DNA from: Bacteroidales bacterium
GTDB taxonomy: Bacteria > Bacteroidota > Bacteroidia > Bacteroidales > F082
Direction of reading: 5' to 3'
Length of the DNA: 32,970 bases
Assembly (NCBI GenBank): GCA_027011095.1
Contig: JALVAQ010000129.1
Location: 1 to 32,970 of the forward strand
Each line of letters starts with the position of its first letter. Within the stretch, counting starts at the first letter, position 1. Under the pieces are notes generated by a model. That model was not told the DNA's origin and searched no databases. It saw nothing but the letters and a program-made list of their open reading frames with translations. Of the stretch, positions 14,316 to 20,114 are shown one piece after another. The translations under genes and the position numbers were made by a program.

Positions 14316-14543
14316 CTAGTCGTCCAATTCCTTTTTATTCATGTTATAAACTTTTTTACCACCATAGGCAGCGCCTAGACCGAGGAGAATAAATAATCCT
14401 CCGCCAATGGGCGCCCCGCCACCAATGGGCTGGCCTTGCGGACTTCCGTCAGGGTCGGAAGGTCCCATAACCTGTGCGGTTGATAACAATGGTAAAACTG
14501 TCAGGAAGCTTATTACAATTAATGTTTTGAATATATTTTTCAT
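14316..14543 (-). CDS. Small secreted protein with glycine-rich C-terminal sorting-like tail
   Basis: A 75-residue protein with an N-terminal signal peptide (MKNIFKTLIVISFLTVLPLLSTAQ) and a short Pro/Gly-rich spacer with the repeat PIGGGAPIGGG. A hydrophobic segment, LFILLGLGAAYGGKK, leads to a charged tail. This layout (motif, helix, basic end) resembles the PID-CTERM type of putative C-terminal sorting signal in Bacteroidota, although the motif here reads PIGGG rather than PID. The mature part before the tail is only about 20 residues, so the protein is little more than a sorting signal. It follows the 1850-residue secreted protein by 18 bases and shares its terminator, so it is probably co-expressed with that adhesin-like protein. 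The PID-CTERM link is from memory of the family pattern and is tentative. Confidence 0.75.
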   Translation of the reverse strand: MKNIFKTLIVISFLTVLPLLSTAQVMGPSDPDGSPQGQPIGGGAPIGGGLFILLGLGAAYGGKKVYNMNKKELDD

Positions 14544-14561
14544 TTTTTTATCCTTTCTTTA

Positions 14562-17500
14562 TTATTTAATGAAAACTTTGGTTGTATAAACTTCTCCGTT
14601 GCTGATAACCCTTACCACTACGTAAGCGTTGGAAGCATTTACCGGAACTCTTACAATATCTCCCGGTGGTAGTGTTTTATTTACCAACGTTCGTCCGGTT
14701 ATGTCATAAATGGTTAGAACTTTGTTCTCATTGGCAAGTGCTTTGCTGCTTAAAACATACACATTCTTCTCATACGCATAGGCGCGTATGGCCGAATGGG
14801 TATTGTTGTTATCAATTCCTGTAACCGAACGATTGAAGTGTAACCTGAACCGGTCGGGGTTTTGATAAGTTGTTGCCTCGAATGTATAAACCGGATTGTT
14901 GTTCAGGTTTTGAATTTTATTCAGTTTAAGGTCTTCAAGCACAACATCTGTTTCAGGCAGGCTGCTTAAGTCGGCAACAAGTGTTTGAGTTCCATTTACA
15001 CCGGCTTTGTAACCAACGGCAACGGTTCTTTCGTCACCGGGGTTGAGAGCAGGCAGGCTGTTTTGACTCAGCTCCTCTTCAGGAATAATAGCATATACCT
15101 GTGGTGCATCACCGCTAAAGGCAAACATCTTACGAGTGTCACGACTTTCAAATAGTTCATCGGCACCATTAATAAACAGGATGTTCAACTCATCATAGTT
15201 GTCATTTCCAAACATGGCTTTGAGTTTCATCATGTCCAAATTATTTGAACGGGTGCTTTTGTAATAAGCCTGTGATGAATGAACTCTGGCAGCCAAAGGA
15301 ATGGTAATGGTTGGGCTTGCAGCGTTGGCATGGATAAAGAATCCCTGTCCCATAGGAATGATACCACCTGATAATGCACCTGTTTTTGTTGTAGTATTAT
15401 AATCTTTGTACAAAGTATTACTCCATACCCAGAAAGTACTGTCCACATTGGCCATGTTCCAGGCACCTGAGTCAAGGGCAATGGGGCTGGCAAACGGGTT
15501 ACCAATTAAGTTGTAGCCCAGCGGGTCAGCCCCTGTATAACTTAAGGCGGGGGTACTGGCAGTAGTAAGCGCAACATCGGCACGGTTTAAGGTACCGGTG
15601 AAATTAAATGTCTGTGCAGCAGAACCGCCAACCCATAACTCATAACCGGCTCCTACATCTAAGGGGTCAGTCAGGGTAGTCATATAAGTTCTTGAATTGT
15701 CAGGCTCATTATAGTGCGTAATCCAAACATCAGGCGAACCTCCCAAATATAAATTATTCAGGGTTTGGCCTTGTACAGGAGACGAATAATCGTGCCATAC
15801 ACCGGCTGTGGTGTAACGCTGAATGGTGGCGTGGCCGGAAACGATTAACAGTCCGTCATTTAAAATAGAGGCGTCTCCGGAGGCATCCGATTCAATAACC
15901 AGACTGTCAATGGTAGTTGCACTATTAAGGGTTGGGTAATTTGTTAATCCTGTGGGGATGGTTACCACAGATGTTGACGATGGTAATCCGGGGTTCCAGT
16001 TTCCGGTTGTATCCCAATCATTGCCTGAGGCACCGGTCCAGGTGGCTGTGGCCACTACTTCAACAACTTTAATATCGTCAACATATAGATTAAATTGATC
16101 AGCATCACTATAACCGTGGAAGCCAATATAAATGGTTTCTGATGATGTTGGCGTAAAGGTTCCTGTACCCATAAACCAACTTGTGTTGGTAACATTGCTA
16201 TTGTCAAATATGGGTGTCCCTGACATGGAGGTTGAGGCGGGTGAGCTACCCCAGTCAACAGCCAGTTTTTCAGGAAAGCTGGGGCTGGCAGCTCTATAAG
16301 CAAATGAAACTTCATAGGTTACCCCGGCAGTTAAATTAAGCCCTCTTGTAAAGAACCAGTCATTCATAGCTGCATTTGAATTCCAACGAATCTTAGCAGC
16401 GTTTGGCGCACTTAAGCCATCTGTTGATGTTTCCCATGTATAAGCATCACCGTTGGTATTTTCTACGGTCATACAGAATGGAAAATCAGGAGCTGTTACA
16501 GCATCAAAGTTTTGGAAGTAGGGTACAGAGGTTGCATCACATTCTGTTGAAAAACTCCATTCAGTTCCTGCAACGGTATCACTTGTACCATTGTACACCG
16601 TGCTTACCGTCCAAAAATATTGAGCGCTGTAATCCCAGTTTGAACCACGTTTATAGAGGGTGTCGGTAAGACTGTAATTGGCAAGCACATCACTTCCACC
16701 GGAAGTTGTTCCAATATTTAGTAGATATTTGGTAGCATTATCTACAGGATTCCATGCTAAAGTATCTGATGAAACTAATATTTTTGAACTACCATCAGCA
16801 GGGTAAGGACCTGTTGCCAATCCGTTGGCGGTTGTGAACGGGGTAGCTGATTTAACCCACACACTATTTGAGCCACTACCGCAGGATGCACGAACATACC
16901 ATTCGTAAGCAGTAGAAGCTAACAGTGTATCAACGGTTAAAAAGGTGTCAGCGGTCACAGTATAATAGGCGGCACCGGTAGTATCAAATCCTGTTTCGCC
17001 AATTCTGACATTCCATGTGGTTGCCGAACCGGATTCTTTCCAGTGCATTTTAACCGAATTTAATTTGATACTATCTTCAGTTAGTGATAGAGGCTCAGGA
17101 CAGGCAGGAGGAACTCTTACCTTAAAGTTGTCAATAAAAATGTCGTTGTCTTTGTTGGTAATAGAAGATGATCCGTAAAAACCAATCTTCACTGTTGAGG
17201 AGTAAGCTGTTAAGTCGATGGTAACATGCTCTCCTGTGTTGGAAATAATTTCAGGATAAGTCCACACTTCTAATGTATCTTTAATACTCCATGTTGCACC
17301 ATTATCTGTTGAAATAACAACAGCAAGTGTATCATCAGGCCCTAAAGTATCGGCATTTGTAGTACCATAGTGCGTTAATGCTAAATCAAATTCCAACTGA
17401 TAAGCATCACTACTTAAGTCAATTGAAGGTGAAATTAGCCAATCTTTTTTAGTGGTACCATAAAGATCGAGCTTGGCACTTTTGCCGTTTGCAGAAACAT

Positions 17501-20114
17501 TGGCAAAATCATCCTGTATCCATGCAGATGATGTACCTGATAAGATTGAAGGATTACTAAGATACCCGGTTGTCTCTGTCCAGCAAATGGGTAAATAATC
17601 AGCAAAATCCTGTGTGTATTCGGGTGTATATACACCACATTCGGTGGTGAAGTCCCATTCAGTACCGCTAACAGTATCGCTGGTTCCGTTGTATACGGTA
17701 CTTACCGTCCAAAAATATTGAGTACTATAATCCCATGGGTTGCCGGCTACATAAATAGTGTCAGCAATGCTGTAATTAGACAGCACATCGTTTCCGCCTG
17801 TAGTTGTTCCAATATTTAGCAGGTATTTTGTTGCATTGTCAACAGGATTCCATTTTAAGGTATCAGACGAAACAAGCACGGGGTCTGTTCCATCGGCCGG
17901 ATAAGGACCTGTAGCCTTTCCGGTTGTGGTTGTAAAGCTGTGAGAGCCAATCCAGTCGCTGTAATCGCCCCCTCCACAGGATGCTCTTACATACCAGTCG
18001 TAAGTAGTGGAAGCAAGCAGGGTGTCAACAGTGATGGTATCGTTGGTAACAACTGAATAGCTTGTTCCGGTAGTATCAAAACCGGAAGTACCGATTCGAA
18101 TGTTCCACTCGGTGGCAGAACCATTTTCTGTCCAGCTCAATTGAGCACTGTTCAATTTTAAGCTGTCTTCAACCTGAGCTGTAGGAGTAGGACATGTAGG
18201 TGCTTCTCTAACATTAATTGTGTCTATAGCCATATCGGATGTATAACCGGAACCGGTTATTCCCCAAATTTTCAAATACACATTGCTGTTTCCGCCATAG
18301 CCATTCAAATAAATAAAGTCTGTATTCCATTGGTTTCCTTGGTCACCAGATACTGACCATATAGTATCCCATGTTACACCATTATCTGTTGAGGCTTCAA
18401 ATTGTAAAGTTCCCATAGTTGAACCATACATGTGGTAAGCAAAACTTACTTGCGGAATGGTTAATGAACTAAAGTCAAATGACAACAATAAACCTGCTGT
18501 TTTGTCCGGATTATTAGGAGAGGAAGATTCTGTATATATGTAGTAGGAACCTGAGTAGGCACCTGAAGGCCCTGTGCTCCCTGACGGGGTACCTCCTGTT
18601 CGCCGTGTCCAGTCAAAGTCATCGCTAGCCATTTGTTTCCACTGTCCAAAGTCAGTTTCAAAACTTTCATTATATGGGAAGGTTGATACAGTATTGGGGA
18701 CAATTTCAGTAGTAAATGTGCTTGGTCCTGTCCATGTGCTTGAGTCTCCTGCACCGCAAATATCTCTCACATACCAATCGTAGGAAGTGGAGCTGGATAA
18801 ACCTGTAAGCGTATAAGGATTGCTGGTGGTAGTCACAAAATGACCTGTACCCTGAACAAATCCTGCAGTATCCCATTCAATTTGCCAATTATTTGAGCCA
18901 CCGGTTGTCCATCCAAGGTTAGCCTGAGAGTTTGTAATATTGCTTTCTGTTTGGGCTGTAGGAGCCGGGCAAGCAGCACATGAAGTTAATCCCGAAGGAA
19001 CAGCAGGATCCCCAATATCTCCTGGAGTAGCTCCACCAGCACCTTCGTCACCTACCATATTACCACCTTCATCGTACACCTGATATTCGTTCTCTGTTGA
19101 ATAACTTCCTGCAGTATAATCAAATGACAAAACATCACCTATGTCAGTAGGGATACTATGTGATTCAGGTCCAGCCCCATTTGATAATGTTAAATCGTCA
19201 TAATATAAAGTACCATTTACATATACATCAAGTACGCCACCATTCCATCCATCACCATATGAATCAATTAGATCCACATGCCAAACACCACAAGTTCCGG
19301 CAGTAGAAAAAGTAGTTGGTCCTGTCCACGTACTTCCACAACCATTTTGTACATAAGCATCATATGTTGTTTTTGAGGTTAATCCTGTAGCTGTTGCGGT
19401 AGTGTCGTTCCCAGCTGTTGTGCTGCCTGAAGAAACAGCAGTTCCTGTACCCGGTGTGCCACCTGAGGCAACAATTTCCCAGTTATAGCCCGAAGAACCT
19501 GAAACTTGTGTCCAGGTAAGATCTGTCGTAGTAGTTGTCGCATTGGAAACCGTTAGTGTGGTGGGGGCAGGGCAACTTATACCTTCAATAACAAATTTAT
19601 CTACAAAAGTATTTTTCAACCCATAATCACTAGTTGCTGTAAGTTTAACCTTTACAACATCATTTCCGATGATATGAGAATAGTGTACCCAGGTAGTAGC
19701 ACCACTTCCATAGGTTTGTATGGTTTCGAGCAGTGACCATGCACTTCCGTCAATTGAAGTGTAAACATCAATGGTTGCCGGCGTTGAGCTGCCGTCATTA
19801 TTCCACCAATAAAAACTGAGTGTTGGATTTGTTTCAGACGACACATCAAACACAGGAGTAATTAAGTCGCCCGTTGTACCGCTGGAATAATCATAATTAT
19901 TAAACATGGCGGCATAACTTCCATCATAAATATTGGCAGAACCGGGTCCATGAGTATCTCCGTCATCTTGTACCCAGGTACCATCTCCAGAAGAAGGGTC
20001 TAATGTCCACCCTGTTGGTGGCCAGGTTTCAAAACTCTCGTCAATGACCTGACTGATTGCAATACTACTAAACACAATAATGCTTAGTGCTAACAATAGT
20101 AATTTTCTTTTCAT
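14562..20114 (-). CDS. Giant modular surface protein with T9SS type A sorting domain
   Basis: A 1850-residue secreted protein exported by Sec and then T9SS; probably an adhesin or structural surface protein, as no catalytic domain is visible. The signal peptide is MKRKLLLLALSIIVFSSIAISQ. Approximate layout: choice-of-anchor/MAM-like domain 22-178; FN3 179-272; a DSYGDGWNGG domain 275-375; FN3 380-467; MAM 468-633; FN3 pair 641-825; choice-of-anchor J-like 825-1003; FN3 pair 1005-1188; a third anchor-type domain 1188-1355; a WTGASGNDWDTTGNW segment and beta-rich region to about 1770; type A sorting domain 1773-1850 ending TTKVFIK. FN3 units commonly open with CPxP. A block of about 365 residues is duplicated. 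It is low in lysine and rich in Thr, Ser, Gly and Asp, as is common for secreted Bacteroidota proteins. The next gene is 18 bases downstream. Domain borders are estimated by eye. Confidence 0.92.
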   Translation of the reverse strand: MKRKLLLLALSIIVFSSIAISQVIDESFETWPPTGWTLDPSSGDGTWVQDDGDTHGPGSANIYDGSYAAMFNNYDYSSGTTGDLITPVFDVSSETNPTLSFYWWNNDGSSTPATIDVYTSIDGSAWSLLETIQTYGSGATTWVHYSHIIGNDVVKVKLTATSDYGLKNTFVDKFVIEGISCPAPTTLTVSNATTTTTDLTWTQVSGSSGYNWEIVASGGTPGTGTAVSSGSTTAGNDTTATATGLTSKTTYDAYVQNGCGSTWTGPTTFSTAGTCGVWHVDLIDSYGDGWNGGVLDVYVNGTLYYDDLTLSNGAGPESHSIPTDIGDVLSFDYTAGSYSTENEYQVYDEGGNMVGDEGAGGATPGDIGDPAVPSGLTSCAACPAPTAQTESNITNSQANLGWTTGGSNNWQIEWDTAGFVQGTGHFVTTTSNPYTLTGLSSSTSYDWYVRDICGAGDSSTWTGPSTFTTEIVPNTVSTFPYNESFETDFGQWKQMASDDFDWTRRTGGTPSGSTGPSGAYSGSYYIYTESSSPNNPDKTAGLLLSFDFSSLTIPQVSFAYHMYGSTMGTLQFEASTDNGVTWDTIWSVSGDQGNQWNTDFIYLNGYGGNSNVYLKIWGITGSGYTSDMAIDTINVREAPTCPTPTAQVEDSLKLNSAQLSWTENGSATEWNIRIGTSGFDTTGTSYSVVTNDTITVDTLLASTTYDWYVRASCGGGDYSDWIGSHSFTTTTGKATGPYPADGTDPVLVSSDTLKWNPVDNATKYLLNIGTTTGGNDVLSNYSIADTIYVAGNPWDYSTQYFWTVSTVYNGTSDTVSGTEWDFTTECGVYTPEYTQDFADYLPICWTETTGYLSNPSILSGTSSAWIQDDFANVSANGKSAKLDLYGTTKKDWLISPSIDLSSDAYQLEFDLALTHYGTTNADTLGPDDTLAVVISTDNGATWSIKDTLEVWTYPEIISNTGEHVTIDLTAYSSTVKIGFYGSSSITNKDNDIFIDNFKVRVPPACPEPLSLTEDSIKLNSVKMHWKESGSATTWNVRIGETGFDTTGAAYYTVTADTFLTVDTLLASTAYEWYVRASCGSGSNSVWVKSATPFTTANGLATGPYPADGSSKILVSSDTLAWNPVDNATKYLLNIGTTSGGSDVLANYSLTDTLYKRGSNWDYSAQYFWTVSTVYNGTSDTVAGTEWSFSTECDATSVPYFQNFDAVTAPDFPFCMTVENTNGDAYTWETSTDGLSAPNAAKIRWNSNAAMNDWFFTRGLNLTAGVTYEVSFAYRAASPSFPEKLAVDWGSSPASTSMSGTPIFDNSNVTNTSWFMGTGTFTPTSSETIYIGFHGYSDADQFNLYVDDIKVVEVVATATWTGASGNDWDTTGNWNPGLPSSTSVVTIPTGLTNYPTLNSATTIDSLVIESDASGDASILNDGLLIVSGHATIQRYTTAGVWHDYSSPVQGQTLNNLYLGGSPDVWITHYNEPDNSRTYMTTLTDPLDVGAGYELWVGGSAAQTFNFTGTLNRADVALTTASTPALSYTGADPLGYNLIGNPFASPIALDSGAWNMANVDSTFWVWSNTLYKDYNTTTKTGALSGGIIPMGQGFFIHANAASPTITIPLAARVHSSQAYYKSTRSNNLDMMKLKAMFGNDNYDELNILFINGADELFESRDTRKMFAFSGDAPQVYAIIPEEELSQNSLPALNPGDERTVAVGYKAGVNGTQTLVADLSSLPETDVVLEDLKLNKIQNLNNNPVYTFEATTYQNPDRFRLHFNRSVTGIDNNNTHSAIRAYAYEKNVYVLSSKALANENKVLTIYDITGRTLVNKTLPPGDIVRVPVNASNAYVVVRVISNGEVYTTKVFIK
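16541..17102 (-). repeat. Intragenic repeat copy B of FN3 pair
   Basis: Codes for two FN3-like units (about residues 1005-1190) and is matched by copy A at 17638-18194. The two share long near-identical protein runs such as LLASTxYxWYVRASCG and WNPVDNATKYLLNIGTT. At DNA level the exact run CTTACCGTCCAAAAATATTG occurs at 16603 and 17701, an offset of 1098 bases. Confidence 0.85.
17638..18194 (-). repeat. Intragenic repeat copy A of FN3 pair
   Basis: Partner of the copy at 16541-17102. It covers about residues 641-825 of the large secreted protein. The copies differ by a few small indels and many synonymous changes, so the duplication is not very recent, but shared exact runs of 20 bases remain. 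Confidence 0.85.

Follow-up and report, generated by a model that had tools for sequence, protein, structure and literature searches.

PID-CTERM mini-protein genes are paired with RemA/RemZ-module T9SS cargo genes across Bacteroidota

The window analysed here (the whole stretch of 32,970 nucleotides from a Bacteroidales bacterium) carries a gene for a giant T9SS cargo and, directly after it, a gene for a mini-protein of 75 residues. The present study reveals that this pairing is not local but recurs across Bacteroidota. Furthermore, the partner cargo belongs to a particular class recognisable by its RemA/RemZ-like module, a point that the initial annotation had missed. Cargo and mini-protein very probably form one functional unit. 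We see about an even chance that the mini-protein is a dedicated membrane-anchored accessory in the secretion or placement of the RemA-module, type A-like T9SS cargo.

The gene pair and its products

The features of the locus, in the order in which they are transcribed, are as follows.

14562-20114, minus strand: T9SS cargo gene, ORF of 1850 aa
14811-15644, minus strand: module of ~280 aa that immediately precedes the CTD and ends in RFRLHF; defined by profile HMM and shared with RemA/RemZ
14565-14789, minus strand: T9SS type A-like CTD of the cargo, a seven-stranded Ig fold without the YPNP motif
14544-14561, minus strand: gap of 18 nt between cargo and mini-protein genes, containing the ribosome-binding-like sequence AAAGAAAGGA
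14316-14543, minus strand: mini-protein gene, ORF of 75 aa
14475-14543, minus strand: mini-protein signal peptide MKNIFKTLIVISFLTVLPLLSTA, modelled as helix 2-20, with K2 and Q24 nearly invariant
14415-14474, minus strand: Pro/Gly-rich linker of ~20 aa (family composition 29% G, 23% P)
14346-14414, minus strand: PID-CTERM segment APIGGGLFILLGLGAAYGGKKVY, a transmembrane helix plus basic pair
14319-14345, minus strand: nine-residue tail NMNKKELDD past the basic cluster; its acidic end is conserved in the family
14292-14264, minus strand: strong intrinsic terminator common to both genes, 13-bp stem and T tail, 3' of the mini-protein gene

The initial annotation had placed the mini-gene 18 bases after the T9SS cargo with a terminator in common, and the ORFs and the terminator confirm this layout. 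The short gap and its AAAGAAAGGA sequence suggest a single transcript for both genes. Among the pairs of the window's family, the median gap between cargo and mini-gene is 20.5 nt.

The structure model of the mini-protein comprises a signal-peptide helix (residues 2-20), a disordered linker and a second helix (residues 48-74). The NCBIfam profile NF046080 (PID_CTERM) matches residues 45-67 with an E value of 3.4e-5 and 23.6 bits, just below the curated cut-off of 26. Two paralogs in the same genome exceed this cut-off (31 and 29.5 bits), and 74 of the 77 members of the mini-protein family match at E <= 0.01. The mini-protein is related by homology to PID_CTERM, though alone it scores below the cut-off, and the earlier PID-CTERM reading of its tail is borne out. 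Its dN/dS of 0.075-0.085 (against two relatives) indicates a real protein under purifying selection. Strong conservation in the family is confined to the membrane segment. In most members, YGxK is followed by 11-15 residues with an acidic end; the last eight residues are net acidic in 59/77 mini-proteins, and the final residue is E or D in 54/77.

The cargo consists of a signal peptide, fn3 and MAM domains (Pfam E values of 4.6e-13 and 7e-28, respectively), the RemA-like module and the type A-like CTD. By sequence, this CTD is weak: TIGR04183 scores it at 18.1 bits in the whole protein and at 23.2 bits in the tail alone, the cut-off being 23. The CTD model shows seven strands (pLDDT 90), and its best PDB match is the RemA CTD bound to T9SS (8gl6_D, TM 0.81 on target). 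A profile search gave no type B CTD match in the cargo, and the partner is a single-helix protein of 75 aa, not a PorP/SprF barrel. A type C CTD was rejected for the cargos, as every match fell below the 40-bit cut-off. The YPNP motif at the CTD start, a common but perhaps dispensable feature of type A CTDs, is absent from this cargo and from 68/70 paired cargos of the family. As a mark of pairing, the YPNP-less CTD holds within the family (YPNP in 2/70 paired cargos versus 33/42 otherwise), but it was discarded because pairs elsewhere in the phylum have YPNP. Its absence in paired cargos is therefore clade-specific.

Recurrence of the pair and the module that marks its cargo

The coupling to a T9SS cargo proposed in the initial annotation holds well beyond the window, as similar small genes follow other T9SS cargos in the genome, the family and the phylum. 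The genome has ten copies of the mini-gene, the window's included, nine of which follow a T9SS CTD gene. Seven of these stand behind a readable CTD gene and two lie at contig starts behind the last CTD codons; one of the two remnants is identical to the tail of the cargo at the end of contig C134. The tenth copy is downstream of an XrtH-like exosortase gene. In the family sample, PID_CTERM matches occur in 96/119 genomes, and 66 of 68 scanned upstream tails match TIGR04183 at E <= 0.1. The two non-CTD tails belong to the neighbour of the exosortase-linked PID gene and to its counterpart in the exosortase operon of a sister genome. Automatic pairing placed 80 of 88 PID genes behind a CTD gene on the named contigs, a set of 80 genome contigs that are nearly all of uncultured Bacteroidales type and partly overlap the family sample. 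The eight misses comprise two contig edges, two CTDs missed by the filter, one tandem copy, one gene behind a broken module and two true exceptions. In the phylum sample, 42/248 genomes match PID_CTERM at the strict threshold, and the same arrangement is seen at 23/28 readable loci; none of these belongs to the window's family, and many lie in other classes. The possibility that the gene pair is not conserved was examined, and the outcome clearly favours a conserved pair.

Some loci depart from the simple two-gene layout. Tandem PID-CTERM genes are present at L092, L060, L105 and L043, mostly visibly behind a single T9SS cargo. In two frames of ~600 aa (L036 and L047, genus g14), the PID helix continues in frame, with no intervening stop, into a lipoprotein-type signal (LLLGMTQC) followed by a large domain; these frames represent a fusion or an unusual membrane protein.

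The module of the cargo carries the motif string GWxLxGNPFxSxIDWD ... QGFFV ... DAxKL ... PQ ... LxINxLP ... RFxLxF. It matched no Pfam or NCBIfam entry, and sequence matches were found to RemA (E 1e-38) and RemZ (8e-37) of Flavobacterium johnsoniae and, more weakly, to Mfa5 (3e-8). RemZ is a type A substrate that was found trapped in the translocon (PMC10994853). The module HMM is present in 69/70 paired family cargos versus 1/39 unpaired CTD proteins of this genome (Fisher 5e-27) and is positive in all 23 pairs outside the window's family, elsewhere in the phylum. Since most family pairs went into the profile, the unpaired set and the other families are the fair tests. A whole-genome search returned 12 copies of the module, eight with an adjacent PID gene and four without. 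No readable paired cargo of this genome is without the module (Fisher 9e-11 for the association of module and pairing), and among about 150 CTD genes, pairing is restricted to the module-bearing ones. The four RemA-module cargos without a downstream PID gene lie on genome contigs C11, C186, C170 and C315. In several genomes of other families (e.g., f6 of the sample), the module is present and no PID gene was found. Where there is a small PID gene, there is nearly always a module cargo; the reverse is not true. The mini-protein is therefore not a universal requirement of module cargos.

These data bear on whether the mini-protein might act on its own in the inner membrane or at the cell surface, for instance as a regulator or stress sensor, its gene position serving co-expression only. 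The confinement of strong conservation to the membrane segment, the tandem copies and the modules without a mini-gene all fit such a role. Nevertheless, we regard it as decidedly unlikely, considering the restriction of pairing to module-bearing cargos, its recurrence throughout the phylum and the co-divergence of the mini-protein with the CTD.

With the module held fixed, mini-protein and CTD distances gave a partial r of 0.385 (p 3e-4; 0.48 in a thinned set), whereas mini-protein and module distances, with the CTD held fixed, gave 0.12 (p 0.026); these statistics are limited by noise in the distances and by the non-independence of related sequences. The comparison is suggestive only, in that the CTD, the secretion signal, may be a likelier contact point of the mini-protein than the module. 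A correlation gradient inside the module toward the CTD side was looked for and none was found. Linkage alone would give a rise toward the CTD within the module; the observation therefore counts against simple linkage. It also speaks against a spread of the pairs as functionally uncoupled two-gene cassettes through duplication and transfer, which we consider very improbable. Up to about ten pairs per genome and the joint divergence of neighbours would fit such cassettes, but the pairing is kept over class-level divergence, with very short gaps and a dN/dS near 0.08.

Sorting enzymes and the role of the mini-protein

The initial annotation had read the pair as two different sorting systems in one operon. 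This claim is unsupported, since at least 13 PID-carrying genomes lack an exosortase above the cut-off, the rhombosortase search gave none above its cut-off, and the tail does not form the extreme C-terminus. Its further suggestion, that the small protein may help to anchor or process the large one, is plausible. The search for a matching sorting enzyme covered both types. TIGR04178 was absent over its cut-off in the 13 genomes, several of them >= 93% complete, while positive controls were found in the same search; one exosortase-less genome has eight PID matches in 30 contigs. For rhombosortase (TIGR03902), no match exceeded 84 bits, the best being 63 bits in ten genomes, with weaker matches in every control genome. 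Rhombosortase was rejected as the enzyme of the PID tail because no match passes the cut-off. XrtX and XrtH were likewise rejected as obligate partners, given the 13 genomes and the XrtX-like genes in genomes without PID matches. Thus, a second-sorting-system reading of the mini-protein is weak. Literature searches on PID-CTERM, on XrtX and on T9SS with CTERM and a small protein returned no relevant paper.

An exosortase link nonetheless keeps some probability, as this genome and a sister genome each have a PID gene on the downstream side of an exosortase operon. On contig C6 (L014:552-2533 and L014:29-268), a PVSNWAI-tailed secreted protein, the XrtH-like exosortase and a 176-aa membrane protein precede the PID-CTERM gene, which has no T9SS cargo; this order is repeated in L087 and L137. 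The PVSNWAI tail resembles an exosortase signal and has no name in the libraries searched. A second protein with such a C-terminal tail (IPVSNWAI; L012:3571-5430) adjoins a PID/T9SS pair in the same genome.

Alternatively, an exosortase-type or other intramembrane sorting protease could act on the mini-protein, cutting it at API(G/D)GG; the short Pro/Gly peptide would then be released or attached to the surface, anchoring the cargo there. Its motif, helix and basic pair resemble CTERM signals, and NCBIfam names the domain PID-CTERM. This genome has an XrtX-like exosortase (L032:1272-1853, contig C62; 89 bits against a cut-off of 170) besides the XrtH-like one, XrtX-like matches occur in 84/119 family genomes, and CTERM tails are also sorted by other enzyme families (PMC3237569, PMC11980579). 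However, known CTERM signals either occur together with their enzymes or are missing along with them, and their basic cluster is at the C-terminus (PMC3237569), whereas here about nine residues more follow, with an acidic end. Together with the enzyme distribution described above, this renders the protease substrate rather unlikely.

The breadth of the pairing, the restriction to module cargos, the purifying selection and the co-divergence with the CTD favour the accessory role instead. The signal peptide would bring the mini-protein into the envelope, and the C-terminal helix would seat it in the inner membrane, probably with the linker in the periplasm and the acidic tail in the cytoplasm. 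It would be made next to, and probably in step with, the RemA-module cargo if the two genes are co-transcribed. There, it may hold the cargo at the inner membrane, hand it to T9SS or set its surface placement or attachment. We infer both a physical contact with the cargo and the step that is served. Given its tiny size and probable inner-membrane location, the partner would act ahead of or during handover to the translocon, or else at the final placement step. Type B cargos provide a precedent, as they need an SprF-like protein encoded just downstream, with a presumed requirement for matching amounts of cargo and shuttle (PMC12618676). On the other hand, the type A CTDs examined to date depend on PorV (PMC12618676), and some PID helices have another setting, either an exosortase operon or a reading frame shared with a lipoprotein-like domain; both points count against an accessory.

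Comparison with known systems

The question of how T9SS distinguishes its cargos and fixes their final place is open (PMC10202324). Should the mini-protein serve the neighbouring cargo, it would be a cargo-specific part of T9SS for type A cargos, and a domain annotated only as a sorting tail would become a testable secretion partner. Besides, the pairing ties the unnamed RemA/RemZ module to a partner protein. More tentatively, and on the doubtful side, PID-CTERM mini-proteins may be unrecognised phylum-wide T9SS accessories that, from the side of the inner membrane, read the CTDs of RemA-module cargos; this would add a third cargo-specific route to those of PorV and the SprF-like shuttles.

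The closest parallel in gene arrangement is the T9SS type B cargo with its PorP/SprF-like shuttle (SprB-SprF, Fjoh_3952-Fjoh_3951), which likewise has a dedicated partner gene immediately downstream, probably matching the amounts of the two products. In contrast to that system, the window's pair combines a type A-like CTD with a single-helix partner of 75 aa and has no outer-membrane barrel. The cargo itself resembles RemA and RemZ, the type A T9SS adhesins of F. johnsoniae, in which the same ~280-aa module precedes a type A CTD, and its CTD fold matches that of RemA; module copies in several sampled families, however, have no downstream PID gene.

NCBIfam treats the NF046080 domain as a protein-sorting tail. 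In our study, it mostly forms a mini-protein of its own that goes with a single class of cargo, and further residues follow the basic cluster. The PEP-CTERM/exosortase and GlyGly-CTERM/rhombosortase systems share with the mini-protein a signal peptide, a short motif, a helix and basic residues. Unlike those signals, the mini-protein is not co-distributed with either enzyme and is no suffix on diverse proteins, and its tail is not the extreme C-terminus.
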